In this document: in pieces, positions 2,144 to 15,825 of the stretch
Position numbering within the stretch: position 1 is the stretch's first letter
How the letters are laid out: each line of letters begins with the position of its first letter
Assembly (NCBI GenBank): GCA_946553025.1
Contig: CAMNRM010000052.1
Coordinates: 1 to 35,753 of the forward strand
Direction of reading: 5' to 3'
DNA: 35,753 nt
Source: an uncultured Clostridium sp.
GTDB taxonomy: Bacteria; Bacillota; Clostridia; Lachnospirales; Lachnospiraceae
Translations under genes and position numbers: made by a program
The notes under the pieces: model-generated
The model's database searches: none
Seen by the model: only the letters and a program-made list of their open reading frames with translations
Told to the model about the DNA's origin: nothing

Positions 2144-2180
2144 AGGATGGGCGGACTTCGTCCGATAAGGTATCCTTTTT
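2144..2180 (+). terminator. Rho-independent terminator of the chemoreceptor gene
   Basis: An outer stem AGGAT/ATCCT encloses an inner CGGAC/GTCCG stem with a TTC loop and is followed by five T on the plus strand. It lies about 70 bases after the chemoreceptor stop codon. Confidence 0.65.
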
Positions 2181-2219
2181 AAGAGAAGAAACAGCCCCGG
2201 TACAAACGCCAGGGCTGTT
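2181..2219 (-). terminator. Terminator downstream of the ferredoxin remnant
   Basis: Inverted repeat AACAGCCC (2189-2196) / GGGCTGTT (2212-2219). Read on the minus strand it is followed by a T-rich tail (TTTCTTCTCTT), so it fits the ferredoxin remnant better than the plus-strand chemoreceptor. Confidence 0.55.
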
Positions 2220-2288
2220 CCTGCCTTCAAGGGTGTAACACAGATAAACCCAAATATCCTATTTTCAAATCTTCTTCTGCTGCTTTCC

Positions 2289-2480
2289 CTATTTTTCCTC
2301 TGGCTCCGGGATAACGTCTACAAATTTCGTCCGGTTCATCAGCGGATGTTCCAGCATAATCGCCCCCGGCACCGGACACTGCTGAACACAGGCACCGCAG
2401 TACCAGCATTCGCCGGGCCATACGACAATCGGATGCTCTCCCTTTTCGGTGCTGGGAAGCAGCACGTCGCTGTGGCATGT
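2289..2480 (-). pseudogene. 3' remnant of a 4Fe-4S ferredoxin-type gene
   Basis: Reading the minus strand from 2480 to a TAG at 2289-2291 gives about 63 codons with a clear ferredoxin C-terminal half: ECWYCGACVQQCPVPGAI, a CxxCxxCxxxCP cluster ligand motif, followed by a short tail. This resembles two-cluster ferredoxins that partner a flavoprotein oxidoreductase. The reading frame has a TAG directly upstream of its first codon here, no start codon or ribosome binding site precedes it, and the N-terminal cluster motif is absent. The break lies about 25 bases from the terminator of the RloA/RloB cassette, so a deletion or the arrival of that cassette probably removed the 5' half. No flavoprotein partner gene is in the window. 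The true identity of the parent gene is unknown. Confidence 0.7.
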
Positions 2481-2504
2481 CTAATTGACTTTCCTGAAAA
2501 ACAT

Positions 2505-2532
2505 AAAAAAGGAACAGCAAAACTACTGTTCC
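2505..2532 (-). terminator. Terminator of the AAA-ATPase/RloB operon
   Basis: Perfect 7-bp stem GGAACAG (2511-2517) / CTGTTCC (2526-2532) with an 8-base loop. On the minus strand it is followed by six T (2505-2510). It lies just past the RloB-like stop codon. Confidence 0.85.
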
Positions 2533-2539
2533 CAAAACA

Positions 2540-3187
2540 TCATATTAGTGATTCTACAAGATGATATACGTCCGTAAATGGATTTACGCCAATGCTAAAG
2601 GGCAGGTTGGCATTGTTATAAATCTGATATTGCTCTACCTTCTTGGCATTTTTAATTGCTGTACTGGTATGTTCTATTAGCTGTGCACATACATCATTCG
2701 ATTTCTCATAATCCGGCAAATGAACTGTCAGCATGGCTTTCACTGCCGGATAATCCTTGAGAAATCGGGTTGTATATTGAAAATGAAGAAGATACCAAAA
2801 CTCAAAGCAGGGATTGGAAATAGCAATTTGGATTCCCTTTGCCTCAGCCATTTTTCTTGCTCTGGCAAGCTGCCCATCTTTCGCTGTTACAGGATCTGGA
2901 TTTCTATAATTCACATCTCCATCCGCAACTACCCACACCGCATCCCCGCCATCAACAGAAATTTGATTTTTATTCTGATATTCGACAGCTTTCCGAATTA
3001 AACGAATATAATCCGTTTCCCCTGCGCTGGTACGGCTGCCCACCACACGAATATCAACATTGGTCTGGCGCGTCCGAAAATGCTCAAAATACTTGGGTTC
3101 CGTCTTTGAGCCTTCAGTTACAATTAAAATAACCGGCTTAATTTTTCTGCGCCGCCCGCCGCGCTTTTCTATTTTTCCTCGTGTCAT
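2540..3187 (-). CDS. RloB-like protein (AbiLii/RloB family, TOPRIM-like)
   Basis: A 215-residue protein with the layout of RloB proteins: basic N-terminus, then VTEGSKTEPKYF with an acidic residue (E25) after the first strand, then WVVADGDVNY carrying a DxD pair (D89, D91), then NPCFEFWYLLHF at 125-136. The E plus DxD pattern is that of a TOPRIM-type metal-dependent nuclease or nucleotidyl active site. The ATG follows the stop codon of the upstream ATPase after one base, and GGGGGA lies just upstream, so the two are almost certainly translated together. Known RloA/RloB (AbiL) pairs are linked to abortive infection and restriction-associated phage defence. The defence role here is inferred from family and pairing. 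The family call is well supported; the enzymatic activity is not established. Confidence 0.85.
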   Translation of the reverse strand: MTRGKIEKRGGRRRKIKPVILIVTEGSKTEPKYFEHFRTRQTNVDIRVVGSRTSAGETDYIRLIRKAVEYQNKNQISVDGGDAVWVVADGDVNYRNPDPVTAKDGQLARARKMAEAKGIQIAISNPCFEFWYLLHFQYTTRFLKDYPAVKAMLTVHLPDYEKSNDVCAQLIEHTSTAIKNAKKVEQYQIYNNANLPFSIGVNPFTDVYHLVESLI

Positions 3188-3188
3188 C

Positions 3189-4394
3189 CTACAATTTTCC
3201 CCCTTTAATCAAAGGAATTGCCCCATATCTCCCAATCAAATATCCGTTTTCAATCTTGGCATCCTTTCGCACAGAAAAATCATAAAGGGAGAAAAGATCC
3301 GTCGATGAAGTTTGTTCATCCTTCTCTGTAAACCAGATTTGATCCCTGCGCAATAATTCTAAATCCAGAAGATTCGTGTTATGCGAAGTAAAAATCAACT
3401 GTGCACCATTTGCATTATATTCTGCACTGTTAAATAATGATACTAAATGTTTCGTTAAAAGCGGATGCAGGTGCGCATCAATCTCATCAGCAACCAAAAG
3501 AGTTCCCTGATCCAAAGCCTTTTTGATAACACCAATCAGCCGAAAATAGCTGTTGGTTCCATCAGATTCCTCGGACATAGGCAATGCATACGAAACAGCA
3601 TTACCATTTTCATCTTGAATGATGTGGACAGCGTCAATATTGTTATAATGCCCGTTTCCTTTTTGCAAAGCAAGTAAAGGTTCTGCCTCCCTTATCAAAA
3701 GCGAATGAATACCAAAATCTGCAATGCGAAGCATGGATGCAATAACACTGCGGTAAGTATCATCCTTTAACTGTTCTGCCTCTAATCCATATGCATCTGC
3801 AACTGAATTTTTTGTAACAATCCGGCAGGATGCAAACCACTCGAAAACAGGAATCACTTTAGAATAACTCCAGTTCGATGCCACAGACAAATAAAGTTTA
3901 TTGGCAGAAGTGCGTTCTTTAAGTGTAGTTTGTTCATCGATATCTATCATAAAACGAAATAATTTTGTGTTTGTGCGTTCAAAGATCAATGCCGGCCTGC
4001 CATTAGGATAGTAATACAAATATTCTTCCACAACTTCCTTATCTGTTACGGAAAAACCATAGGCATATCGTACACCTTTAACCGTAAAAATAACCTCAAA
4101 ACTGCTGGGCTGTACAGGTGTTATCTTATCAAATTTAAAAGGAGAACGATCAATCGACTTATGGAGCTGCTGATTATGGGAAGTCAGCACATAATTTACC
4201 ATAAACCAGAATGCATTCAGCACATTGGATTTGCCGGAAGCATTCGCACCGTAGATAACCGCAGATTTTAAATAATTTTTATTTGTATCAGAAATCAAGT
4301 ATTCAGAGTGCTCACTGTCTTTACCGGCAAGCATGGACAGTACAATCTTATCTTTAATCGACAGATAGTTTTCTACACTAAACTGAATCAGCAT
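3189..4394 (-). CDS. AAA family ATPase (RloA/AbiLi-like), partner of RloB
   Basis: A 401-residue ABC/SMC-like ATPase of the AbiEii/AbiL-type AAA_15/AAA_21 class. Visible motifs: an N-terminal strand MLIQFSVENYLSIKDK, Walker A GANASGKSN (residues 49-57), an ABC-signature-like SEESDGTNS near 275, Walker B LLVADEIDAHLHP near 299-311, and the switch TSHNTNLLD near 337. In this class the ATPase is thought to sense infection and license the partner nuclease. A GGAGGT ribosome binding site precedes the ATG, and a promoter sits about 40 bases upstream. The gene looks more AT-rich than its neighbours, which fits horizontal acquisition. No signal peptide or membrane segment is seen. The defence function is inference; the ATPase family is clear. 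Confidence 0.88.
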   Translation of the reverse strand: MLIQFSVENYLSIKDKIVLSMLAGKDSEHSEYLISDTNKNYLKSAVIYGANASGKSNVLNAFWFMVNYVLTSHNQQLHKSIDRSPFKFDKITPVQPSSFEVIFTVKGVRYAYGFSVTDKEVVEEYLYYYPNGRPALIFERTNTKLFRFMIDIDEQTTLKERTSANKLYLSVASNWSYSKVIPVFEWFASCRIVTKNSVADAYGLEAEQLKDDTYRSVIASMLRIADFGIHSLLIREAEPLLALQKGNGHYNNIDAVHIIQDENGNAVSYALPMSEESDGTNSYFRLIGVIKKALDQGTLLVADEIDAHLHPLLTKHLVSLFNSAEYNANGAQLIFTSHNTNLLDLELLRRDQIWFTEKDEQTSSTDLFSLYDFSVRKDAKIENGYLIGRYGAIPLIKGGKL

Positions 4395-6195: not shown

Positions 6196-7710
6196 TTACT
6201 TCTTCTTCATGTAATTGGCCTCGTAATCCTTCAGCGCATTTAACGCCTGGCTGGCCAGAGGAAGAATAGCAAACATATTGAAGATGGTCATTAAACCAAC
6301 GCCTAAGTCACCCAGATCCCATACAAAGGTGTATGCTGCAAGTCCGCCGATAAACAGCATGACCAGACAGAAAACCTTATAACCCGTCTGTGCAGCCCAG
6401 GTATCTCCGAATACATAAGCAACGTTTGGACGTGCATAGTAGAGAATACCAATAAAGGTTGAAAAGCTGAACAGGAACAGGATTACTGCGATAAATACAA
6501 CGCCGAAGTAACCTAAGTGATGATTCATGGCTGCCTGTAACAGATCCATTCCTTCCAGTCCGCCGATAACGGAATCAGGAGCCAGAAGCATCAGGAATGC
6601 GGAACAGCTACAAATAACCAGAGTATCAATAAATACGCCCAATGACTGAATCAGGCCCTGCTTTGCCGGATGAACAACGTCCGCCGAAGCTGCCGCACAG
6701 GGGGCAGAACCGCTACCTGCTTCGTTGGAGAACAGTCCGCGCTTAACGCCGTTCATAACCACTGCTCCAAGTCCGCCGCCTGCTACCTGCTTTAAGCCAA
6801 ATGCCTGTGAGAAAATATTTCCAAGCACTGAAGGCATTAAGGTAATGTTTTTAAGAATGATAAAGATGGTAATGGCAAAATAAGCAACTGCCATAACCGG
6901 AACCACTCGGTCAAGTACCTTTACGGTTGCATTCTTGCGCAGAACGATAACTGCGGACAGGGCAACTAATACGACCGTTGTGGCAATCTGCGGGATGTTA
7001 AACGCATTCTTCATGGATGTGGTAACGGAGTTTGCCACTACCTGGCTGATACCGGCCCAGCAAAGCAGTCCTGATAAGGCAAACAAAACGCCCAGAAGTC
7101 TGAACTTACAGCCGCGGCTGTAATGGGACTCTTTATCATCGGAAACATAAGCTGCTTCACTGTCTACATCCTTTACGTAAACATCTTCACGCTTAATCTT
7201 GGTAATCATGCGCATACGATCCATAAAGTAGGCCGGACCTCCGCGGTAACCGCCGTATAACGGGTCCTTCTCTTTATAAATCTGTGCCAGCGTGGATTCA
7301 ACAAATGCGGTAGAGGAACCGATTAATGCGGTAATCCACATCCAGAATACAGCTCCTGCGCCTCCGACCGATACCGCTGCAACTACACCGGCTAAGTTCC
7401 CCATACCAACGCGGGTAGCCGTAGCAACGATCAGCGCCTGTACACCGGAAATTGAATCCTTGTCTTTTTCCTTGCTCTCGTCTTTTTCCAGCGTCACCCG
7501 TATCATCTCGGGAAAGAGCCGGAACGGTAAAAACTTGGTTTTCACGGTGAAGTAAATACCAACAGGTATCAGAACCAATACCAGAAGGGATAAACCAAAC
7601 TGTGTTTCGCCGTTAGAAAATTCCAGGACTACCAAGTCGCCCCACAATAAATTGTTTACTGATGTCACAAGCTTGACAAATGCCTGCGCTATCCAGTTAA
7701 AAACATTCAT
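6196..7710 (-). CDS. AGCS-family sodium/amino acid symporter
   Basis: A 504-residue multi-spanning membrane protein of the alanine-or-glycine:cation symporter family. Family features include FGLSLLVLVLIPVGIYFTVK near the N-terminus, ATATRVGMGNLAGVVAAV, IYKEKDPLYGGYRGGPAYF, and GLFSNEAGSGSAPCAAA, a conserved substrate/cation-binding loop. I start at the ATG at 7710, which has GGAGG six bases upstream; a start seven codons earlier lacks one. It precedes tpl on the same strand, so it may import tyrosine or another TPL substrate (TPL also acts on some serine and cysteine derivatives), or it may carry alanine as usual for the family. Enterobacterial tpl is instead paired with the HAAAP-type permease TutB. 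The substrate assignment is inference from context. Confidence 0.92.
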   Translation of the reverse strand: MNVFNWIAQAFVKLVTSVNNLLWGDLVVLEFSNGETQFGLSLLVLVLIPVGIYFTVKTKFLPFRLFPEMIRVTLEKDESKEKDKDSISGVQALIVATATRVGMGNLAGVVAAVSVGGAGAVFWMWITALIGSSTAFVESTLAQIYKEKDPLYGGYRGGPAYFMDRMRMITKIKREDVYVKDVDSEAAYVSDDKESHYSRGCKFRLLGVLFALSGLLCWAGISQVVANSVTTSMKNAFNIPQIATTVVLVALSAVIVLRKNATVKVLDRVVPVMAVAYFAITIFIILKNITLMPSVLGNIFSQAFGLKQVAGGGLGAVVMNGVKRGLFSNEAGSGSAPCAAASADVVHPAKQGLIQSLGVFIDTLVICSCSAFLMLLAPDSVIGGLEGMDLLQAAMNHHLGYFGVVFIAVILFLFSFSTFIGILYYARPNVAYVFGDTWAAQTGYKVFCLVMLFIGGLAAYTFVWDLGDLGVGLMTIFNMFAILPLASQALNALKDYEANYMKKK

Positions 7711-7806
7711 ACGCCTCCTCCATATCGACATTTTCTTTAGCTACACCCTTGAGTTTTCAGCCTCGTCGCGACCTCAGCTTTTTTCTGACACATGGCGCGT
7801 AATGCG

Positions 7807-7816
7807 TGATGCATCA
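7807..7816. promoter_or_regulatory. Palindrome TGATGCATCA near the symporter-tpl transcription start
   Basis: A perfect 10-bp palindrome starts about 14 bases downstream of the -10 element of the symporter promoter, a typical repressor position. It is a candidate site for the divergently encoded GntR/FCD protein; this is inference. Confidence 0.4.
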
Positions 7817-7829
7817 TGTTTGTATCTCT

Positions 7830-7857
7830 ATAATACCATATATTTCACAAAAGTCAA
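7830..7857 (-). promoter_or_regulatory. Sigma-A-type promoter of the symporter-tpl operon
   Basis: On the minus strand TTGACT (7852-7857), a 16-base spacer and TATTAT (7830-7835), each 5 of 6 to consensus. The leader would be about 110 bases. The spacer starts TTTGTGAAAT, one half of a Rex-like site, without a matching second half. Confidence 0.7.
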
Positions 7858-7963
7858 GCGTTTTTTTATTTTTTTTTAACAGATTTTACAACTTTTTATT
7901 TTTTCCAATTTTTAGTTCAAAAACAGTTTGCAAAAAAAGGCCGAAAAAATACATGTAACTGGA

Positions 7964-7992
7964 TTGTAATTCCTGAGAAAGTATAGTAAAAT
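7964..7992 (+). promoter_or_regulatory. Probable promoter of the GntR regulator
   Basis: TTGTAA (7964-7969), a 17-base spacer and TAAAAT (7987-7992) on the plus strand, upstream of the regulator. Confidence 0.5.
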
Positions 7993-8110
7993 AGGGAAGA
8001 TTTCAAAGGTTAGTACAAACTGACACTGTATCGCACATAAAATACAGCATAAGTTTTTTTGTTAAATGACACTTTTTGTTAAAATCCACAAAGAAGAGGA
8101 GCCAAATTCT

Positions 8111-8761
8111 ATGGCAGAAAAAATTGTAAAACTGACACTCAGCGATCAGATATACAACATATTGCAGAAAGATATTATTGACGGGGTTATTCCTTTAGGA
8201 GGCAAGCTGACCAACCGTGAGCTCCAGGAGCGCTTCCAGGTTTCTTCCACCCCTGTCCGCGATGCTATCCATAAGTTATTTCAAAACGGCTTAGTCGAGG
8301 ATGTGACAAAGACCGGGGCGCAGATTATCAGCTTTGACCCGGATTATTCCAAAGAAGTAAACGAATTTATCTCGGCCCTGGCCTGCGAAGCGATGCTGAT
8401 GACCGCACAGATTGCCGACCAGGAACAAATTGCGAAGGAACTTTACCGCTATCAGAACGAAATGATTAAGGCGGAGGACAGCAACCTCTATTTTGAGGCC
8501 GATGTCAATTATCACAACTGTTTTTTTGAACACTGCGGAAACCGCTTTTTAAAAGAAACCTACGAACGGTACGACTTGATCCGTATTTTATTAACCCGCT
8601 ATGCGATCCGCACACCGGAAGAGAAAACGGCAACCATCCGCCAGCACCAGGCCATCACGGAAGCCTACGTATCCGGCAGCCATGAACTGGCCAAAAAGCT
8701 GATTAACAAGCATTACCGCTATGGTATCTGGCAGATTAATGATTATTTTTCACGGCAGTGA
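8111..8761 (+). CDS. GntR-family transcriptional regulator, FadR/FCD type
   Basis: A 216-residue one-component regulator. Residues 5-75 form a winged helix-turn-helix (LTNRELQERFQVSSTPVRDAI, with the following wing near TKTGAQI). The C-terminal helical FCD domain shows the usual metal/ligand residues: an Asp/His pair in DVNYHNCFFEHCGNRFL, a His in RQHQAI and a His in NKHYRYG. I start at ATG 8111, preceded by GAGGAG about nine bases upstream; an ATG 45 bases earlier has no ribosome binding site. It is divergent from the symporter-tpl operon and should respond to tyrosine or a related acid and control that operon and itself. Its stop lies one base from the stop of the converging radical SAM/HAD gene. 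Confidence 0.9.
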   Translation: MAEKIVKLTLSDQIYNILQKDIIDGVIPLGGKLTNRELQERFQVSSTPVRDAIHKLFQNGLVEDVTKTGAQIISFDPDYSKEVNEFISALACEAMLMTAQIADQEQIAKELYRYQNEMIKAEDSNLYFEADVNYHNCFFEHCGNRFLKETYERYDLIRILLTRYAIRTPEEKTATIRQHQAITEAYVSGSHELAKKLINKHYRYGIWQINDYFSRQ

Positions 8762-8762
8762 G

Positions 8763-10307
8763 TTATTTTATACCCTGAAGCTTTATTCCTTCACTGCACA
8801 AAAGCAGCATGGCTTCATCTTCCGCCGAATCCCCCACGGCAGCCGCCTGTTTCGGGGATATGCCGATTTCCCGGCAGATGATTTCCACGCCGTTTTCCTT
8901 GCTGGCCCCTGCCGGGATAACCTGCATACAATTATTCTCGCAAAGAAAACGAACGCTTCCTTTCCATGTTTCGGGAAGAACACCCTGAAGGAAGCTTTCT
9001 TCTGCCCTCTCCCACCCGCAGTCCTCCCGGCGGCATAAGGTTATTTTGTAGAGTTTTCCCTTATTTCTGTAGGCATACAGGCGGCAATGCAGGCTTTTAC
9101 TCTGCTCTTTCACCGCAGAAAGCACGGCTTCGTCAAGCGGATAAAGGATTTCCCGGTATTCCTGGTGCAGGGCTTTTTTCTGCCGGATTTTATTACAGGG
9201 CACTTGTTCATCCTCACCTCCGGCTTCCTTCCACAAAAGATGGGCACCCCCGGCAAAAATCCCGCCGTCAAACAGTTCCCATACCTCCGGGCACCTTTTT
9301 TTTGCCTCCGGCACAGGAAGGCTTGTGGCAAAAAATAACCGGGTTCCCATCGTTTTCAGCGCCTTAAGGCTTGCCGCGGTCAGCGGATCGATCTCCCTTT
9401 CTCCCTCCTGCAGCAAAGTCCCGTCGATATCCAGAAAAACCGCCGGGAAATACCGGGGAATACGAAACAGAGGATACTTTCCAAACAGCAGGGTATTTAC
9501 CCAGTCCCCGCGCCCGCCGTAGGCCAGATAGCAGGAACAAGCCTTTTGCCTGCACACAGGAGAAGGAAAGGAAAAATTCTCCTGAAACCAGTTTCCCGGC
9601 ATACGTCCGCTGATATTGCAGGTCTGCATCTTACCGTTTCCCTCGATAAAAAGACGATTTTGGCAGTTTTTACGTTTTGCCGGGACGGCGCTTAACTCAC
9701 GGATAAAAAAGGGATCAATCGCGGAAAATGCCTGCACTTCTTCTCTGGTATAAGCCCGTTTCAGACCGTCCATCACATTGATCCAGAGGTAAATTTCATC
9801 CGGTAAGCAGCGGCGAAGTTCACCGATCAGAGAAAGGTTTTCCGGCACGCCCACTGCCCCGGCACACAGGGCAATCCCTTCCTCTGCCGCTTCCCGGCAT
9901 TTCTTGGCAAAATGCTCAGGAGAAACCATCTCCGGATGATAGGTCGCCCAAAGGCGCAGTTTCTCTTTCCTTCCTCCGGCTTCTTTCCACAGCTTCCCCG
10001 CCTGCTCCATGGAAAAGCTGAAATTTGTCTGGACGCCCACAGCTTCTGCCTGTTTAAGCCGGCTGAGAAAGGCAAGTCCCTCCCAGTACCACGGATGAAT
10101 CAGGGCTTCGCCGTAAGGAACCACCATCAGCGCAAATCTGCCCAATTCCTCTGCCCGCTCTTCCAGACTTTTACAAAATTTCATCCAATCCTGTCTGTCT
10201 TTCTCCATTTCCCGCCCGGAAGTCGGATGCTTGGCAAAAGGACAGTAGGAGCAGGAATAATTACAGCTTTTTAAACTGCCCCGGTAAAGAATCATCTTAC
10301 TGTCCAT
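8763..10307 (-). CDS. STM4011-like radical SAM protein fused to a HAD phosphatase domain
   Basis: A 514-residue two-domain protein. Residues 1 to about 275 are a radical SAM protein: CNYSCSYC (C15, C19, C22) binds the SAM cluster, and further cysteines (C215, C230, C252, C257, C259) look like a C-terminal auxiliary cluster region. Residues from about 288 form a HAD-IIB-like phosphatase: FLDIDGTLL (D293, D295), a T/S motif near FFATS, and GDSAEDEAMLL (492-502). The HAD part ends about ten residues after its last motif, shorter than usual. The family is known to me as STM4011, of unknown function. The start ATG has GGGAGG six bases upstream and overlaps the preceding STM4012-like gene by 11 bases, so translation is coupled. 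Substrate unknown. The gene set around it suggests modification of a peptide or small molecule. Confidence 0.85.
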   Translation of the reverse strand: MDSKMILYRGSLKSCNYSCSYCPFAKHPTSGREMEKDRQDWMKFCKSLEERAEELGRFALMVVPYGEALIHPWYWEGLAFLSRLKQAEAVGVQTNFSFSMEQAGKLWKEAGGRKEKLRLWATYHPEMVSPEHFAKKCREAAEEGIALCAGAVGVPENLSLIGELRRCLPDEIYLWINVMDGLKRAYTREEVQAFSAIDPFFIRELSAVPAKRKNCQNRLFIEGNGKMQTCNISGRMPGNWFQENFSFPSPVCRQKACSCYLAYGGRGDWVNTLLFGKYPLFRIPRYFPAVFLDIDGTLLQEGEREIDPLTAASLKALKTMGTRLFFATSLPVPEAKKRCPEVWELFDGGIFAGGAHLLWKEAGGEDEQVPCNKIRQKKALHQEYREILYPLDEAVLSAVKEQSKSLHCRLYAYRNKGKLYKITLCRREDCGWERAEESFLQGVLPETWKGSVRFLCENNCMQVIPAGASKENGVEIICREIGISPKQAAAVGDSAEDEAMLLLCSEGIKLQGIK

Positions 10308-11604
10308 GGCACGCCTCCCACTCTATCATCCTCTGTCTTACCTGCCGGGAAATCATCTGCGGGCCAAGATAATCCGACAGACCCAGTCCCATCTCAGAAA
10401 GCGCCAGGAAAGAATCCCGAACCAGCCAGCCTTTATCGATCCATTCCCCCAGAAACGGAAAATCCACATCTGCCCTGCTTTGAAACCGCCGGTGATATTC
10501 TTCCTCATCTAGCCCCGGATAAATCAAAAGATGGCGGATAAGATAGCGCCTCTTTATCTCGTCTTCCGAAAGCAGAATCCCATGGTTTACCTTCGTATAA
10601 TCTTTAGCCGCGATAAATTGCTGAAGCTGAAAAAGACTGTCTTTGGGGGTAATGGCATAGGGTGTGCAGAAATGAAGGTTTCCCAGATAACTCCTCCCGC
10701 CGCAGCCCAAAGCCAGGGATGTCCCAAAACCGCAGTCCGAAAATTCCCGCAAAGTCCCTTTTTCATCCTTTACCCGCACAAACCGGCGCATGGAATCCTG
10801 GCGAAAACCAGAAGATCTTAAAAAGGCAGAGGCTTCCCTGTACTGTTCATAAGCTTTCTGCGGTTCCAGAACCAGCCCGCACTGTATTTGCTTTTCCAGC
10901 CCGGCACCATGTTTAACATAAAGCGGGTAGAGAAATATCTCGTCCGGGGAAAACTCCAGGGCTTCTTTTAATGAACACAGAAGCGAATCCTTCGTCTGCC
11001 CGGGAATCCCATAGATAAAATCAATATTTACACAGGCAAAACCCTCCTCCATTAAAAGTTCTAAAGCCTTACGGGCTTTTTGGGCACTGTGCTGCCGGAT
11101 GAGGGTTTTCAGTTCCGCATCAGAAAAACTCTGAATCCCCATACTGACACGGGTAACTCCCGCCTGTTTTAACCGCTGAAGCTTTTCCCTGCTTGTCTGG
11201 TTGGGTGCCGTTTCTATAACCATTTCTTGGATTCCCTGAAAATGCGGTGATTTTTTCAGCATCTCAAAAAACCTATCCATCTGGCTTTCATTGAGAAGCA
11301 AAGGCGTTCCTCCCCCAATGGTCAGCGAAGAAAATGAACATGAATCGGGAAGAATGGAAACATACTGTTCCACCTGGCGTTCTACCGCCAAAAGATACTT
11401 GTCCATAACTTCTGCGGACTGGCCCGTCACCGAAAACAGGTTGCAGTAACCGCATTTCGTCTGACAAAAAGGGACGTGCAGGTACAAACCGTGCCCCGGG
11501 CCGGCAAGACGCCGAAAATAATCTTTAAGCGGGAGTGAAGGCAGGGGACGGTAAGCCGTTTTATGGGGATAACTGTACATATACTGGACATAAGGGTTGA
11601 ACAT
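10297..11604 (-). CDS. STM4012-like radical SAM protein (HemN-related)
   Basis: A 435-residue HemN/HemW-like radical SAM protein. The N-terminal YLHVPFCQTKCGYC supplies the three cluster cysteines (C47, C51, C54). GGGTP near 97-101 and ETAPNQTS, SMGIQSFSD and FIYGIPGQT follow, as in the coproporphyrinogen-dehydrogenase-like family. The C-terminal third differs from true HemN. It matches the family named STM4012 by its place in this gene set. The chosen ATG at 11604 has AGGAGG five bases upstream; a start 14 codons earlier would lie inside the hairpin that follows the DUF4397 gene. No other haem synthesis gene is near, so I do not call it HemN or HemW. Reaction and substrate are unknown. Confidence 0.87.
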   Translation of the reverse strand: MFNPYVQYMYSYPHKTAYRPLPSLPLKDYFRRLAGPGHGLYLHVPFCQTKCGYCNLFSVTGQSAEVMDKYLLAVERQVEQYVSILPDSCSFSSLTIGGGTPLLLNESQMDRFFEMLKKSPHFQGIQEMVIETAPNQTSREKLQRLKQAGVTRVSMGIQSFSDAELKTLIRQHSAQKARKALELLMEEGFACVNIDFIYGIPGQTKDSLLCSLKEALEFSPDEIFLYPLYVKHGAGLEKQIQCGLVLEPQKAYEQYREASAFLRSSGFRQDSMRRFVRVKDEKGTLREFSDCGFGTSLALGCGGRSYLGNLHFCTPYAITPKDSLFQLQQFIAAKDYTKVNHGILLSEDEIKRRYLIRHLLIYPGLDEEEYHRRFQSRADVDFPFLGEWIDKGWLVRDSFLALSEMGLGLSDYLGPQMISRQVRQRMIEWEACHGQ

Positions 11605-11632
11605 AAAAGCCTCCTGGATGTAAGAATAGTTA

Positions 11633-11678
11633 GAAAACAGGGCCATAATTCATCGTCGCCTTCTGAACTATGGCCCTG
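11633..11678 (-). terminator. Hairpin between the DUF4397 gene and the radical SAM pair
   Basis: A perfect 10-bp stem CAGGGCCATA (11638-11647) / TATGGCCCTG (11669-11678) with a 21-base loop and TTTTC on the minus strand. The short T-run suggests partial termination, which would set a lower level for the two radical SAM genes than for the DUF4397 gene. Confidence 0.6.
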
Positions 11679-11734
11679 CAAAGCAAAGGAATTTCAAAAT
11701 GCCTGCTAAAGCAAAATCGTTCCCCTACAGCTTT

Positions 11735-12772
11735 TTAATACACCAAATCGCTCTCTAAAGTCAGGATCTGCAGTGCCGGGAACTGATAGGCCATTCCGAT
11801 AATATACATCGTGTAAGTTACCCCGTTCATCAGATTGACATTGGAAGAATCCATATAGGCAATGCGGGTATTATTACATTCTGCATAGGTATCGGCCATA
11901 ATCACAGCATTATTGTTCGTGCAGGGCAGAGCCTCCGATACAAAGGCCCGGTAGCCTCCCTGGCCGACCGAATAATAACCGGAAGCATCCAACTGCCCCA
12001 GACGCGATACAACACGCCCATAGCCAGAAAGGAAAATATCCACCGGGCCGCTGTTTGGCGATAAGTTTACGGCACGCACACAGGCTGCACCGCGGCTGCT
12101 GCAGGGCGTATCCGTCAGCGTAAACGCGGTAATTCCCGAACCGTCATTAATGATGGATACGGTATAGGCATTTTGGCCGGAAAAGCGGATATTTCGCCGA
12201 AACAGGGTCTGGCCGGTCTGAGCATCTTCAATCGTCACCAGCGTATTTCCCCCGTTTTCCAGATAATAGGGCGTGGAGTTTCCATACTGCAGGTTATTGA
12301 TAACTGTGCGGTTTCCCAGTCTTACATGTACAGCCGGCTGGTTCACTGCAGCATGAAGAAAACGCACATTCGCATAATTGCCTGAAGAACCGGAACCGCA
12401 GTTCACACAGCCGATCTGCCCCGGGATAATGACAACCGGACGATTGCTGCCTCCACCCGAACCTCCTGGATTTCCTGGCGGCGGCCCCCAGGAGGGCGTA
12501 TCCGGGGATATCGGGGCAAAGCCCGGGGAATTATCACCTGCGGGCGGCGGTCCCCAGGAGGGCGTATCCGGGGATATCGGAGCATAGCCCGGGGAATTAT
12601 CATCTCCTGGCGGCGGTCCCCAGGAGGGCGTATCCGGAGATATCGGGGCATAGCCTGGATCTGAGCCGCCTGCTGCGGGCTCTGCATCCTGTGAGGCTTC
12701 GGTCATCTGTACCTGTTCATTACTGCCTGAAACAGGGCGAAAAGGCATCCATCCGTTTTCATTGATATACAT
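11735..12772 (-). CDS. DUF4397 protein with three 22-residue Pro/Trp repeats
   Basis: A 345-residue protein. Residues 39-99 hold three near-identical 22-residue units, PGYAPISPDTPSWGPPP plus a G/D/N/S-rich spacer; the third has F for Y. A Gly/Ser linker and CVNC (122-125) follow. From about 133 to 330 are two DUF4397 modules (YANVRFLHAAVNQPAVHVRL and AACVRAVNLSPNSGPVDIFL). Related domains are usually extracellular, but no signal peptide, sortase motif or membrane segment is seen. A mother-cell spore coat role would fit a leaderless surface protein, but no sporulation promoter is visible. AAAGGA precedes the ATG. The gene interrupts the STM4011-4015-like set between the hydrolase and the STM4012-like protein. 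It may be a substrate of those enzymes or an unrelated insertion. Confidence 0.8.
   Translation of the reverse strand: MYINENGWMPFRPVSGSNEQVQMTEASQDAEPAAGGSDPGYAPISPDTPSWGPPPGDDNSPGYAPISPDTPSWGPPPAGDNSPGFAPISPDTPSWGPPPGNPGGSGGGSNRPVVIIPGQIGCVNCGSGSSGNYANVRFLHAAVNQPAVHVRLGNRTVINNLQYGNSTPYYLENGGNTLVTIEDAQTGQTLFRRNIRFSGQNAYTVSIINDGSGITAFTLTDTPCSSRGAACVRAVNLSPNSGPVDIFLSGYGRVVSRLGQLDASGYYSVGQGGYRAFVSEALPCTNNNAVIMADTYAECNNTRIAYMDSSNVNLMNGVTYTMYIIGMAYQFPALQILTLESDLVY
12476..12658 (-). repeat. Three tandem 66-base coding repeats
   Basis: In-frame tandem copies encode the Pro/Trp units of the DUF4397 protein. The last copy is incomplete, ending after GPPP. The copies are almost identical in DNA, which implies recent expansion or gene conversion. 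Confidence 0.9.
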
Positions 12773-12816
12773 ACGTTTTCCTTTCTGTTTGATTGCTTCT
12801 GCAAACGGTATACTAT

Positions 12817-12847
12817 ATCATACGTAAAATCTGACGGATGGTGTAAA
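12817..12847 (-). promoter_or_regulatory. Weak candidate promoter of the DUF4397 gene
   Basis: On the minus strand TTTACA (12842-12847), a 19-base spacer and TATGAT (12817-12822). The spacer is long. No CATA-type -10 element of sigma-E or sigma-K was found in this 100-base gap. Confidence 0.3.
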
Positions 12848-12872
12848 CAATTGCTTAATCGGTGATCAATTT

Positions 12873-13796
12873 TCACAGGAAAAAATGCTTATAGGGAACC
12901 GTATTGACATAAGGATGATTAATTCCGTGGAACTGACAGCCGTCCTCGCCGTAGCAGGTTCCATGATCCGAGCAGCAGATAACCAGGGCTTCCTTCCTCT
13001 GGCTCTTCCATCCCGCAAACAGGCGTCCAAGTTCCCGATCCACATAGCGCAGGGCTGCCGCATGGCTCTGGAGGTTGTCATGAGAAACGCCGTCGGCATA
13101 AAAATAATTCGGATAATGGATGGCATCCACATTAAGGTACAAAAAGATCCGCTGATCCTTATCTGCCGCCGAAATTTTTTTCAGCAGAAAATCCACCTGG
13201 TTTTTAGTACTTTCTTTGACCGGACAGGCAAAGGACGGATTCCAGTAGCTTTTCTTAAAATAACCGGGAAATACCTTCCCAATCGGAGAACGCTTGTCAA
13301 AAAAAGCCACGCCGCCCACGCACCAGGTATCGTACCCGTCCGCCGCCAGCCCTTCCATAATCGTGCTTCCCGAAAAACCGTAGGCACCTTCAGGCACCTT
13401 ATTTCCCAGACCAATCTGCCTTGGAAAAAATAAGAGTTCGCGGTCGGCAACGTTCTTTGCATCGTAGCGGCAGGGCATAAATCCGGCAAACATCGCATGG
13501 TGTGAAGGGTAGGTAAAATTCCCCGGGGCCTGACATTTCTCCCAGGGGCCGTACTGATTTAAGACCGGGGTTGTTCCTGCTTTTTCTTCCTGAACAGCCA
13601 CATCATAGCGCAGCGTATCCAGACAGATAAATAAAATATCTTTTTTCCCCACAACTTCACGCATATCCACGGACGGCTTTTCTTTGGGATGGGAAGGCCG
13701 AAAAAGGCCGACGGGAACATCCTCAGCCGCCCTTGCCCCTGTAGGGTTATTTTTATTATTTACATCATCATTGCGCATTTCTTTCCTGTCTTCCAT
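12873..13796 (-). CDS. STM4013/SEN3800-like hydrolase (alkaline phosphatase/sulfatase fold)
   Basis: A 307-residue member of the alkaline phosphatase superfamily. LFICLDTLRYD (D60) gives the first metal site, FTYPSHHAMFAGFMP holds the nucleophile position, and CSDHGTCYGEDG with FHGINH (D277, H278, H290/H294) gives the remaining metal ligands. The sulfatase CxPxR or SxPxR signature is replaced by T95-Y-P-S-H, so formylglycine cannot form. A threonine nucleophile, as in some phospho- and phosphono-hydrolases of the superfamily, is more likely than sulfatase activity. The first 45 residues are polar and low in conservation. GGAGG lies 11 bases before the ATG; M7 is an alternative start. There is no signal peptide, so it is cytosolic. 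Gene context identifies it with the STM4013 family of unknown substrate. Confidence 0.83.
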   Translation of the reverse strand: MEDRKEMRNDDVNNKNNPTGARAAEDVPVGLFRPSHPKEKPSVDMREVVGKKDILFICLDTLRYDVAVQEEKAGTTPVLNQYGPWEKCQAPGNFTYPSHHAMFAGFMPCRYDAKNVADRELLFFPRQIGLGNKVPEGAYGFSGSTIMEGLAADGYDTWCVGGVAFFDKRSPIGKVFPGYFKKSYWNPSFACPVKESTKNQVDFLLKKISAADKDQRIFLYLNVDAIHYPNYFYADGVSHDNLQSHAAALRYVDRELGRLFAGWKSQRKEALVICCSDHGTCYGEDGCQFHGINHPYVNTVPYKHFFL

Positions 13797-13812
13797 GACG
13801 GTTATTTCCTCC

Positions 13813-14874
13813 TTATCCGTATAGTTCGGAAAGCATCATCCTGGCCTGATGGCGGTAAATCCGGTTTTCATGGTAAATATCCTGATAAATTAAATCTCCC
13901 TGCCCGTTCATCTCGATAATTCTCGGGCGAAGGCTTCCTTTTTCCAGAAGAATATCTATCCCCGCAGTTTTAAGCCCCGGGTACAGGCGCACGGACTCCA
14001 CGGCCAGGGATTCTGCGGCATACAGGACGGAAGGGGGAAGCTGCAGTTCGGAGGCTAAAAGAGGATGGTTGTTTAAATGCAGGTTGGTAATCGGTCCCTT
14101 CGAGAGCCTGGCCAGGCAGAAATCCATCTGCCCGTCCTGAACCACAACCCGCAGATCATAGGTAAAGCCTTTGTGTTCGGCTTTCGCATACCAACGCTCA
14201 ACCACACAGTCCATCGCTAAAAGCTGATTTAAAAAAACCAAAATATCCCTGCGTTCTTCCAGACGCCGCATCTTTTTTGTATTCATCAGACAATTTTCCT
14301 GCGGATTCCAGAGTGCGCAGGTATAGAGAACCATCTTCCCGGTTTTTGGGCAGACCCGAAACGCCGTAACGCCCAAAGCTCCCGACCCGTAATTCGGCTT
14401 GATAAATACCTGGCCGATCCGCCGTTCCTCCATCACCGAAAGAAGAACTTCCAGCGTATCTGCCGCCGGGAGTTCTTCGGTCACGGATAACCCGGAAAAA
14501 GCAAGCTTTTGCTTACAGGCACGTTTATCTAACAGACAAAGGATTGCCTCCGGATGATTAAAAAAAGAATAACCAAACGCTTTCCCTATAGTATCCAACC
14601 GTTCCAGATTCTTCCGGTACTCCCCGGCCAATGCCGGAAATACATCCAGCGCAGCACTCTCCCACAGCGGCGGGTCGATCTTAATGATCCCATTTCCTCC
14701 ATGTTCGTCAAGCCAGTTCTTCCAAAACGCTTGGTTCCACGTCTTCCAGTCGATAAAGAGAAGCGAAAGCCCCTCACGCCTGGCCGCATCTTCCAGAAAA
14801 ATCTTTCGCTTTGTCCCCGAACAGCCCAAAAGAGCCGCCCACTTCTCTCCTGCCTTTTCCATCACGCCGTCCAT
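13813..14874 (-). CDS. STM4014-like protein (ATP-grasp fold)
   Basis: A 353-residue protein with an ATP-grasp-like core. FIKPNYGSGALG (about 157-168) is the nucleotide-binding lysine/glycine loop, FTYDLRVVV supplies the basic residue, and AGIDILLE plus IIEMNGQGDLIYQD (E321, N323) supply the metal ligands. Enzymes of this fold join a carboxylate to an amine or thiol through an acyl phosphate. The preferred start is the ATG whose A is the last base of the upstream TGA (TGATG), so it is translationally coupled to the LRR gene; the GTG just before it is an alternative. It lies 16 bases upstream of the hydrolase gene. It corresponds to the STM4014 family by position and size. Substrates are unknown. 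Confidence 0.82.
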   Translation of the reverse strand: MDGVMEKAGEKWAALLGCSGTKRKIFLEDAARREGLSLLFIDWKTWNQAFWKNWLDEHGGNGIIKIDPPLWESAALDVFPALAGEYRKNLERLDTIGKAFGYSFFNHPEAILCLLDKRACKQKLAFSGLSVTEELPAADTLEVLLSVMEERRIGQVFIKPNYGSGALGVTAFRVCPKTGKMVLYTCALWNPQENCLMNTKKMRRLEERRDILVFLNQLLAMDCVVERWYAKAEHKGFTYDLRVVVQDGQMDFCLARLSKGPITNLHLNNHPLLASELQLPPSVLYAAESLAVESVRLYPGLKTAGIDILLEKGSLRPRIIEMNGQGDLIYQDIYHENRIYRHQARMMLSELYG

Positions 14875-15737
14875 CACTCGGTCAGCATGGCATTCATCCA
14901 GACCTCACCGTGGTAGACTTCCTGTTCATTCTGCTCCGAAAGATCCAGATCCACCCCCGGCAGTTCGCGTTCCATCCTCTTCATCATCGCATCGGAAAGA
15001 TAATGATAGTGAAGATCCAGCTTTTCTATCTGCGGATAATGCGGAAGTTTTTCCAGAAGCAGTTCGGCCCCCTTATCGGTCAATGTACCGCAGGACAAAT
15101 CCAGGGTGTTTAGCTGTGCCATAAACTTGCTCTCCAAAACCACCGCTGTCAGTTCATCCTGGATTTCGCTGTCTGCAATTCCCAGATATTCCAGTTTCGG
15201 AAAATCAGCTTCTTCAAGAAATGCCCTAATGGTATTTTCATCCCCTTCAAAACCGTAGTTATCAATGCCGATATACAGAAGAAGCTTCTTTAAATTCGGC
15301 AGCTTGGCTTTTTTAATCTCTTCGATAACACTGTCCGGAAGCCCTCCGCAGATAATCGTTAAAGCTTCCAGGTTTTCATGGCAGATCTCTCCAAGGACAA
15401 GTTCTGAACTTCCCTTAATGGTAAGTTCCTTAAGCTGGGGCATGGCTTTCCAGATCCTGCTGTAATTCCCCTGGATAATCCAGGATACCTCGCACTCTTC
15501 ATAGTCCATATCGCCCACAAACAGCTTTTCAATATGAGAAAACTTCTCCGGTGCATCTGCAATCGCATCCAAAAGCGCCTGGCACCCGTCGTCCCAGGCA
15601 TCCCCCCAGCACCCGATAATGACTTCATTCAGCGCGGGAAATTCCGGGTCGTCCAGGATCTGCCTAACCATATCCTCCGGCGTAACCCCTTCTTCATACT
15701 GTTCGTAGCTGATTTCATACTTCTTTGCCTTTTCCAT
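14874..15737 (-). CDS. STM4015-like leucine-rich-repeat protein
   Basis: A 287-residue cytosolic protein. The acidic N-terminal 60 residues (SYEQYEEGVTPEDMVRQILDD) are followed by irregular leucine-rich repeats from about 85 to 260, for example LKELTIKGSSEL, LEALTIICGG, LKKLLLYIGID, LEYLGIADSEI, LNTLDLSCGTLT and IEKLDLHYHYLS. Such solenoids usually bind a protein or peptide, so it could recruit a substrate for the downstream enzymes. AGGAGG lies just upstream of the ATG. It opens the STM401x set, 88 bases downstream of the comF-like gene on the same strand. It may be cotranscribed with that gene; the gap holds GTGACA but no convincing -10 element. It matches the STM4015 family, function unknown. 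Confidence 0.82.
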   Translation of the reverse strand: MEKAKKYEISYEQYEEGVTPEDMVRQILDDPEFPALNEVIIGCWGDAWDDGCQALLDAIADAPEKFSHIEKLFVGDMDYEECEVSWIIQGNYSRIWKAMPQLKELTIKGSSELVLGEICHENLEALTIICGGLPDSVIEEIKKAKLPNLKKLLLYIGIDNYGFEGDENTIRAFLEEADFPKLEYLGIADSEIQDELTAVVLESKFMAQLNTLDLSCGTLTDKGAELLLEKLPHYPQIEKLDLHYHYLSDAMMKRMERELPGVDLDLSEQNEQEVYHGEVWMNAMLTE

Positions 15738-15825
15738 GAAAAAATCCTCCTGTTTTTCTTTTTTATTTTGGTTTTTTATTTTCTAATGTCGTTATTTCTA
15801 ATATCTTTATTTTCTGTCACGCTTT

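Follow-up and report, generated by a model that had tools for sequence, protein, structure and literature searches.

The LRR protein STM4015, encoded in the STM4011–STM4015 gene set of an uncultured Clostridium sp. (contig CAMNRM010000052.1; the whole analysed stretch of 35,753 nucleotides is here called the window), belongs to a family whose members almost always end in glutamate. This C-terminal Glu is the new point of the present analysis, and the gene set itself is grounded in observed protein families, co-inheritance, tail conservation and retained catalytic residues. Judged from sequence, it falls just short of an even chance that STM4015 acts as a substrate or carrier rather than as a binder, with the ATP-grasp protein STM4014 ligating a building block to the C-terminal Glu and the two radical SAM enzymes modifying it.

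Composition and spread of the gene set

An ORF check of the window located six ORFs, all on the minus strand (Table 1), as had been described in an earlier note on this DNA, which reported six packed genes. The two junctions singled out there are likewise present in the sequence: the stop of STM4015 and the start of STM4014 meet in TGATG, and an 11-base overlap joins STM4012 and STM4011. Five of the proteins exceed the curated NCBIfam cut-offs for STM4015, STM4014, STM4013, STM4012 and STM4011, which confirms the identities proposed in the note. Gene order and strand match those of the STM4011–STM4015 set, with a DUF4397 gene intervening.

Table 1. Features of the gene set in the window, with the profile matches that support them.
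Feature	Positions	Strand	Evidence
STM4015-family LRR protein, 287 aa, first gene of the set	14874..15737	-	NF038076, E 7.2e-100
Last ten codons of STM4015 (EVWMNAMLTE), C-terminal Glu adjoining the stop; proposed modification site	14877..14906	-	
STM4014-family ATP-grasp protein; start GTG 14877 or ATG 14874 (TGATG)	13813..14877	-	NF038074, E 1.4e-88
STM4013-family alkaline-phosphatase/sulfatase-superfamily hydrolase	12873..13796	-	NF038075, E 4.2e-117; Sulfatase PF00884, E 9.9e-13
DUF4397 protein with 66-bp tandem repeats, apparent passenger between STM4013 and STM4012	11735..12772	-	PF14344, E 2.1e-22
STM4012-family HemN-like radical SAM protein	10297..11646	-	NF006067, E 2e-150
STM4011-family radical SAM domain, Twitch-type cysteines	9456..10307 of ORF 8763-10307	-	NF038073, E 1.6e-88
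HAD-IIB (Cof-type) phosphatase domain fused to STM4011	8763..9446	-	TIGR01484, E 1.1e-10; PF08282, E 7.2e-15
Ribosome-binding site of STM4015, AGGAGG	15746..15751	-	direct reading

The Salmonella and E. coli records of STM4011–STM4015 contain the same five families in the same order and with the same HAD partner as the window. They differ in that HAD is a separate gene in the records opened, whereas in the window it is fused to STM4011, and in that the window has the DUF4397 gene between STM4013 and STM4012.

Profile searches found all five families above cut-off in the identical five of 220 genomes of the host's family. In the Streptomyces order, the presence of STM4015 agrees with that of STM4011 in 193/197 genomes (84 with both, 109 with neither, and 2 + 2 with a single one). 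All five genes were found in 53 of the 56 loci with ample flanks, the other three being without some of the five nearby; at L030 and L065 both radical SAM genes are absent nearby, yet the STM4015 tail is kept. The set is found in gut clostridia, E. coli (154 of 5426 complete genomes) and Streptomyces, and also on plasmids. Relatives of STM4013 occur at at least 586 places in named genomes, and the survey loci are 80 of those listed, most of them closely related to the window. The five STM4011–STM4015 genes are one inherited unit. Fisher tests of co-occurrence take no account of kinship among the genomes and so exaggerate significance; no weight is placed on them here. Placement in unrelated families, or genes rarely found together, had been named in the earlier note as grounds against its gene set; the outcome of both searches favoured the set, and co-occurrence in the 220 and 197 genomes bears out its suggestion of a portable set, the genes travelling together across distant bacteria and plasmids.

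The set had also been called undescribed. In the literature searched this is correct for function: full-text searches by gene name returned only incidental mentions of these genes, and there was no match for 2RA8, DUF6745, DUF4397 with radical SAM, or four-term combinations. It is not correct for the families, which NCBI has already curated, nor for the LRR protein, a relative of which has been solved as 2RA8.

The DUF4397 gene, counted in the earlier note as a sixth member, looks like a passenger. The gaps on its two sides measure 100 and 88 bases, in contrast to the overlapping pairs STM4015–STM4014 and STM4012–STM4011; the gene contains 66-bp tandem repeats at 12473-12655. The genome also has another DUF4397 gene outside this locus. 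With a one-sequence profile (E 1e-5), which could miss a distant DUF4397 protein, the family was not detected in any of the 80 other loci. Such a miss is unlikely at the STM4013–STM4012 junction, since the gap there is at most 150 bases in 65/75 cases. Eight ORFs from the 10 longer gaps, tested with Pfam, included no DUF4397 protein; they comprise an FtsX permease, a histidine kinase, an ABC ATPase, a response regulator, a chemotaxis receptor, a DUF2887 protein and two without a match. DUF4397 was thus rejected as a member of the set.

The carboxy-terminal end of STM4015

STM4015 of the window is a relative of the solved structure 2RA8 (E 4.4e-71). Its final residue is shared by 97/97 STM4015 proteins of the first survey, by 16/16 cluster representatives at 50% identity, and by 174 of 180 distinct proteins, near-identical ones remaining among the 180 after six records alike over the last 120 residues had been removed from 186. 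The window gene itself (L001), ORFs without a stop and STM4015 matches below 60 bits were left out of these counts. The Glu is missing in six of the 180, three of which end in GIGA and lie inside complete clusters. The Streptomyces-order sample consisted of 40 hand-picked stretches favouring unlinked copies and matches ending early in the profile, so exceptions to the terminal Glu are over-sampled; copies from this order were fetched in part, and one of the 40 stretches (L165) held nothing over the thresholds. Five further STM4015 proteins outside the 180 (from L092, L093 and L168) all end in Glu.

The terminal Glu follows a variable, mostly acidic linker of 34-47 residues, counted from the last-repeat motif with a rough pattern that left 7/180 unmatched. 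Entropy is 0.24 bits at the last position vs about 3 bits over most of the linker; conservation of the tail is thus highest at the carboxy-terminal residue itself, while linker length and sequence vary. As a control, the last residues of STM4014, STM4013, STM4012, STM4011 and HAD were compared, and all of them vary. STM4015 residues S85, W86 and Y161 are conserved to the same degree as the tail end, being present in 47/47 aligned proteins. The AlphaFold2 model of STM4015 has a mean pLDDT of 95, and the tail, which includes a short hairpin, is modelled with pLDDT 92 (residues 271-280) and 84 (281-287). The tail is thus modelled with fair confidence instead of as a floppy end, and its conservation could in part reflect a structural role.

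The Glu is also kept in 20 of 23 distinct STM4015 copies located away from the enzyme genes (13/16 solo copies and 7/7 beside an STM4014-like gene). Several STM4015 copies per enzyme set were found in 7/80 survey loci and in 7/16 fetched Streptomyces-order clusters. The seven two-gene pairs of STM4015 and an STM4014-like gene suggest a direct partnership of STM4015 and STM4014. In the sole pair examined (L130), the ATP-grasp catalytic residues are altered, so this protein may not ligate.

Enzymes of the set and their surroundings

The nearest solved relatives of STM4014 are RimK, LysX and alpha-L-glutamate ligases, all weak and over partial stretches (best E 4.9e-5; LysX, 2.6e-4), followed by D-Ala ligases (E 9e-4). 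According to a part of PMC4431377, ATP-grasp ligases are marked by two basic residues, one acidic residue and an ExN motif. STM4014 has this pattern: K118, K160, D308 and N324 are present in 40/40 aligned proteins and E322 in 37/40. A text search of the R2K/CDC123 ATP-grasp paper found LRR, leucine and radical SAM unmentioned.

Bioinformatics analysis of STM4011 revealed the cysteines C15/C19/C22, C215-X9-G-X4-C230 and C252-X4-C257-X-C259, all positions being present in 26/26 aligned proteins; these correspond to the CX3CX2C and Twitch cysteines of SkfB-like maturases. SkfB is the only solved sequence relative of STM4011 at E 0.01 or better (E 1.1e-4). In the window, STM4011 has only 14 residues ahead of its first cluster Cys, which leaves no room for an N-terminal RiPP recognition domain. 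The solved relatives of STM4012 are HemN and NocN.

Formylglycine sulfatases carry a Cys or Ser nucleophile within C/S-x-P/A-x-R. STM4013 does not match this pattern: the corresponding motif is T-x-[PA]-[SA]-H, and the presumed nucleophile is Thr in 31/31 aligned proteins; D60, D277 and H278 are, like T95, present in all 31. The HAD-IIB score is only just at the cut-off (41.9 vs 41.8 bits), and the domain contains a DIDGT motif.

Median gaps within the operon are -4 bases for 4015-4014, -4 for 4014-4013 and -22 for 4012-4011, which are lower bounds because starts were taken from the longest ORF. Small ORFs of 20-90 aa lying up to 700 bases from the operon ends number 1308; no short precursor peptide was apparent among them, similar ORFs being common to at most four closely related loci. 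Clustering of 891 flanking ORFs, with the 40 widest clusters judged by eye from sequence starts, brought no recurrent peptidase neighbour to notice, and neither an exporter nor a protease was seen to hold a constant position next to the set. These clusters comprise transporters (MATE among them), ABC ATPases, sensors and regulators, whose positions are scattered; MATE relatives turn up in 12 loci, the window included. A role in anti-phage defence was also considered and rejected, as the only PADLOC match among eight proteins was that of STM4012 to the candidate model PDC-M51A (E 1.4e-6, 99 residues).

Candidate mechanism, alternatives and known systems

In the substrate or carrier reading, the tail of STM4015 would be the reaction site, consisting of an aromatic residue, a small residue or Met, Leu or Val, one of Thr/Gly/Ala/Ser, and a Glu with a free carboxyl, and the LRR body would be the recognition handle. 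STM4014 would activate the C-terminal Glu and couple to it a building block bearing an amino group, comparable to the action of LysX on LysW and of RimK on S6. Twitch-type STM4011 and HemN-like STM4012 would next reshape the tail or what has been attached to it; phosphate may be stripped or transferred along the pathway by STM4013 and the HAD domain; and the product would either remain a built-in part of STM4015 or be freed by an unlinked peptidase. We infer the tail's part as substrate, and likewise the sequence of reactions, what each of the two hydrolases does and what kind of group is attached. Modification of the tail leaves the two phosphate hydrolases without an account, which counts against it. 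So do the six STM4015 proteins that do not end in Glu, the weakness of the RimK and LysX matches of STM4014, the altered catalytic residues at L130, the tail kept at L030 and L065 with no radical SAM genes nearby, and the by-eye survey in which no peptidase recurred.

A bolder proposal, which we regard as tentative and somewhat doubtful, is that the set performs a new post-translational chemistry: the LRR protein would be handle and carrier at once, the ligase would extend the Glu, and the two radical SAM enzymes would build a group there. The group on STM4015 is possibly a resident protein cofactor, as neither an exporter nor a protease recurred at a constant position. In Streptomyces and its relatives, several LRR carriers, linked or unlinked, would share one enzyme set, and some aerobes would add a DUF6745 protein and a small protein with HEEH/QREY motifs. 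The DUF6745 protein has a conserved C-terminal end of its own.

LRR proteins commonly bind partners, and the earlier note had taken STM4015 for a binder. As a scaffold, its tail would dock enzymes whose target is a diffusible small molecule or another protein; the equal invariance of S85, W86 and Y161, the fair AlphaFold2 confidence of the tail and the phosphate hydrolases, which suggest a small metabolite, all agree with this. A docking motif, however, needs no Glu exactly at the stop codon, the position at which nearly all of the distinct proteins have it, and most off-set copies keep the residue too, although docking in trans would explain the latter. Because a substrate or carrier accounts better for the near-invariant Glu, the several copies per set in some loci and the ATP-grasp partner gene, the binder role appears doubtful, and we consider the scaffold explanation rather unlikely. 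It is improbable that the tail serves only to cap the LRR fold, in an operon making a small molecule or cofactor: the well-modelled tail with its short hairpin would suit a cap, but the linker varies as the end stays constant, and conservation peaks at the final residue.

The kinship of STM4011 to SkfB, a Twitch radical SAM enzyme, would also be expected if a short, unannotated precursor were matured in a conventional RiPP pathway, in which STM4015 would be only the recognition protein. With similar small ORFs confined to a few mutually close loci and with intra-operon gaps that leave little room, such a pathway is decidedly improbable. The position of the DUF4397 gene within the window's set could point to its product as the substrate of a six-gene system; its non-detection at the other loci, the usually short STM4013–STM4012 gaps, the other contents of the long ones and the further copy in the genome make this hardly credible.

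The substrate or carrier reading has partial counterparts in known systems. LysX is the ATP-grasp ligase of the LysW system, and LysW is a small zinc-binding carrier ending in EDWGE. STM4015 resembles LysW in its C-terminal Glu, and LysX ranks among the weak top matches of STM4014; STM4015 is, however, a 287-aa LRR protein ending in NAMLTE, its set includes radical SAM enzymes, and no common biosynthetic neighbours were noticed by eye. In amino-group carrier proteins such as LysW, the side-chain carboxylate of the C-terminal Glu accepts the building block (in a part of PMC9303977). RimK, the S6 glutamate ligase and, weakly, the nearest solved relative of STM4014, is an ATP-grasp enzyme working on a protein C-terminus (in a part of PMC10092738), whereas the partner of STM4014 would be a dedicated LRR protein of the operon instead of a ribosomal protein, with radical SAM enzymes added. 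Pearlin/PEARL pathways, as outlined in a part of PMC9303977, apply radical SAM chemistry to groups attached to a carrier C-terminus, but the six window proteins have no PEARL/LanB-like Pfam domain and include an ATP-grasp protein instead. The sactisynthase SkfB (PDB 6EFN) shares the CX9GX4C and CX4CXC cysteines with STM4011 and differs in its N-terminal RiPP recognition domain and in the short precursor, neither of which was found in STM4011 or near the operon, respectively.

The C-terminal Glu recasts the question of function as whether the mass of STM4015 changes when its partners are present. If it does, the set would represent a novel type of radical chemistry on a carrier and a new role for LRR proteins.

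The STM4011–STM4015 set and its inheritance

All six minus-strand ORFs claimed by the earlier note are found in the window at the coordinates given, as are the TGATG junction and the 11-base overlap. NCBIfam puts five of the products above the curated cut-offs for STM4015 (LRR protein), STM4014 (ATP-grasp), STM4013 (hydrolase), STM4012 and STM4011 (both radical SAM), in agreement with the identities proposed earlier; the STM4011 protein also carries a HAD-IIB domain with an intact DIDGT motif. The five families are already catalogued, and the window is a member of this catalogued set. No description of its function was found in the literature searched. Two papers mention one of the genes incidentally: STM4013.S is listed with a sigma-54 binding site (PMC3844500), and STM4015 is an entry in a selection-survey table (PMC2784778).

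The sixth product is a DUF4397 protein, and its inclusion in the set was not supported. With a one-sequence profile DUF4397 was detected in none of 80 other loci, the long STM4013–STM4012 gaps (>150 bases in 10/75 loci) contain other genes or matchless ORFs instead, and a second DUF4397 gene lies elsewhere in the window's genome (contig C82). The DUF4397 gene thus looks like a passenger.

The other genes form a set, as borne out by genome co-occurrence, shared gene order and ORF fusions. In the family of the host (220 genomes, the window's own included), the same five genomes exceed the cut-off for each of the five profiles, and no other genome does; in a class-wide sample, STM4015 occurs in 3/291 genomes. 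Among 197 genomes of the Streptomyces order (Streptomycetales, now Kitasatosporales), hand-matching of the lists above cut-off gave 84 with both STM4015 and STM4011, two with STM4015 alone, two with STM4011 alone and 109 with neither. Of the STM4015-only genomes, G514 has a partial, sub-cut-off STM4011 match and G646 has none.

The STM4013 alignment, run against named genomes, matched at least 586 relatives, of which 80 were kept. All five genes are present in 53 of the 56 amply flanked loci among these 80, and in 51 of the 53 they follow the order 4015-4014-4013-4012-4011 on a single strand (counting one split STM4014 ORF, one STM4013/STM4012 fusion and two loci where STM4015 is duplicated); the other two are rearranged. 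The incomplete loci are L030 and L065, where STM4012 and STM4011 are not nearby, and L033, with STM4013 only. Single ORFs fuse STM4014 with STM4013 (L022), STM4013 with STM4012 (L056, L067) and STM4011 with HAD (54/80 loci); in the examined Salmonella and E. coli records, HAD is a separate next gene. Pairwise protein distances of the five families correlate (r 0.80 to 0.93, 70 loci), as expected under joint inheritance, some of the correlation arising from common descent alone.

A chromosomal set is present in 154/5426 E. coli genomes. Of 13 plasmid records found, the six examined carry the set (Salmonella, Deinococcus, Paenibacillus, Streptomyces, Methylobacterium) or, in Bacteroides, a broken version of it. 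The Salmonella record (L005) is labelled a plasmid, yet also bears glnA and hemN; ompL and typA flank the set and its separate HAD gene both there and in E. coli (L168). STM4013 is also encoded in the short unannotated phage-labelled records OR845521.1 and OR850900.1 (H33, H34), possibly host DNA in phage preparations.

Features and loci of the set (L, compared DNA stretch)
Record	Coordinates	Feature
Window	8066-8761	GntR/FCD regulator gene, pointing towards the set, ending one base from its 3' end
Window	12473-12655	Tandem repeat in DUF4397 gene, 66 bp, 2.8 copies
L004, Bacteroides finegoldii plasmid	7519-11536	Broken set; STM4013 a short remnant, STM4012 not found
L033, Eubacterium plexicaudatum	8998-9819	STM4013 without the other four genes within about 9 kb
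L037	9828-16068	6.2 kb between STM4013 and STM4012: response regulator, histidine kinase, ABC ATPase, FtsX permease
L006, D. taeanensis	2168-4186	VWA-domain protein upstream of STM4015
L090, Deinococcus ficus	8827-12941	VWA-domain protein adjoining DUF6745; glutathionylspermidine-synthase-like gene also near
L128, L131, L133, L135, L137, L139, L145, L149, L150, L154, L156, L158, L160, L162, L164, L166		Streptomyces-order clusters with DUF6745 + QREY
L006, L008, L009, L083, L088, L092, L093		Other loci with DUF6745 + QREY beside the set
L130, L132, L134, L136, L138, L140, L167		STM4015 paired with diverged STM4014-like ATP-grasp, apart from the rest of the set

Accessory genes

In some aerobes, the set is adjoined by two further genes, one for a DUF6745 protein and one for a small protein (roughly 100 aa) with conserved HEEH and QREY motifs, here named QREY. 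Both lie beside the set in 16/16 fetched Streptomyces-order clusters and in Deinococcus, Methylobacterium, Nonomuraea and Streptomyces plasmid records; among the 80 surveyed loci, only L083 and L088 have them. The sets of Rhodococcus (L084) and of Paenibacillus or Saccharibacillus (L007, L082, L085, L087, L089) do not have these two genes next to them. Two records (L090, L091) contain DUF6745 without the set nearby, and two further matches were found in Acetobacter. Eight of nine DUF6745 proteins end in ET or EA and one in QT. The literature searched yielded no mention of DUF6745.

The C-terminal tail of STM4015

The last residue of STM4015 is Glu in 97/97 proteins of the first set, in 16/16 cluster representatives at 50% identity and, once the Streptomyces order is included, in 174/180 distinct proteins. 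All 97 proteins of the first set have an aromatic residue at −6 or −8 (His counted at −6). The preceding linker varies in sequence and length and is mostly acidic (mean 6.7/17 residues, range 0–12), and entropy, about 3 bits before the tail, drops to 0.24 bits for the final residue. No comparable last-residue conservation was found in STM4014, STM4013, STM4012, STM4011 or HAD, the closest being Leu in 46/84 STM4013 proteins.

Streptomyces-order genomes contain up to six STM4015 copies. The 40 stretches fetched comprise 16 enzyme sets with one to four STM4015, 16 solo copies, seven two-gene pairs and one below threshold throughout; Glu is terminal in 13/16 solo and 7/7 paired copies. The six non-Glu proteins form two groups of alike copies, a GIGA cluster copy (L128, L133, L135) and a VGPLTY/VGPLSY solo copy (L142–L144). 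L142 comes from G646; the link between its altered tail and the missing STM4011 match is suggestive only, since the other two genomes of this group do contain the set (L150, L166). In L130, the sole pair examined for catalytic residues, the STM4014-like partner matches NF038074 below its cut-off (E 6e-18) and can be aligned over residues 15–308 of 334; it may be inactive, as Arg occupies the K160 place and Asp-x-Asp replaces ExN.

Enzymes and a proposed mechanism

STM4014 is modelled by AlphaFold2 with a mean pLDDT of 92.6, and it retains the ATP-grasp catalytic residues in the alignment (feature list from PMC4431377). Among solved structures, RimK ranks first against its profile (E 4.9e-5); LysX and alpha-L-glutamate ligases come next and D-Ala ligases after them. 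These weak matches point to peptide-bond-type ligases. RimK adds Glu to a protein C-terminus (PMC10092738), and in AmCP systems building blocks are attached at a C-terminal Glu (PMC9303977).

The STM4011 cysteines CX3CX2C, CX9GX4C and CX4CXC are invariant (26/26 aligned). With a threshold of E 0.01, SkfB is the one solved protein related to it in sequence (E 1.1e-4) and has the CX4CXC motif in common with it; the SkfB paper (PMC6231123) names this motif and reports one auxiliary cluster in a Twitch domain. The N-terminus of STM4011 is too short to hold a recognition domain, and the LRR body of STM4015 could take its place. STM4012 is HemN/NocN-like. STM4013 belongs to the phosphatase/sulfatase superfamily, with arylsulfatase and nucleotide pyrophosphatase as solved relatives. 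The residue at its presumed nucleophile place is an invariant Thr, so it is not a formylglycine sulfatase, the motif of which has Cys or Ser there.

The families, their linkage and their conservation are observed, and from these we infer the reaction, the order of steps and the attached group. STM4015, a binder in the earlier note, would be the carrier or substrate; STM4014 would be the ligase for the C-terminal Glu of STM4015, the two radical SAM enzymes STM4011 and STM4012 would be radical modifiers, and STM4013 and HAD would perform phosphate-handling steps. Against the carrier reading, tail exceptions occur within clusters, and L030 and L065 retain a tailed STM4015 without radical SAM genes nearby; among the neighbours of the set, no enzyme for release stood out. 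AlphaFold2 models the tail with fair confidence (pLDDT 84), and it may therefore be partly structural. A solved relative of the LRR protein, 2RA8 (Q64V53_BACFR), is labelled uncharacterised, and the literature searched yielded no mention of 2RA8. What is new here for this catalogued set is the STM4015 tail, together with the reading of STM4015 as a possible carrier.
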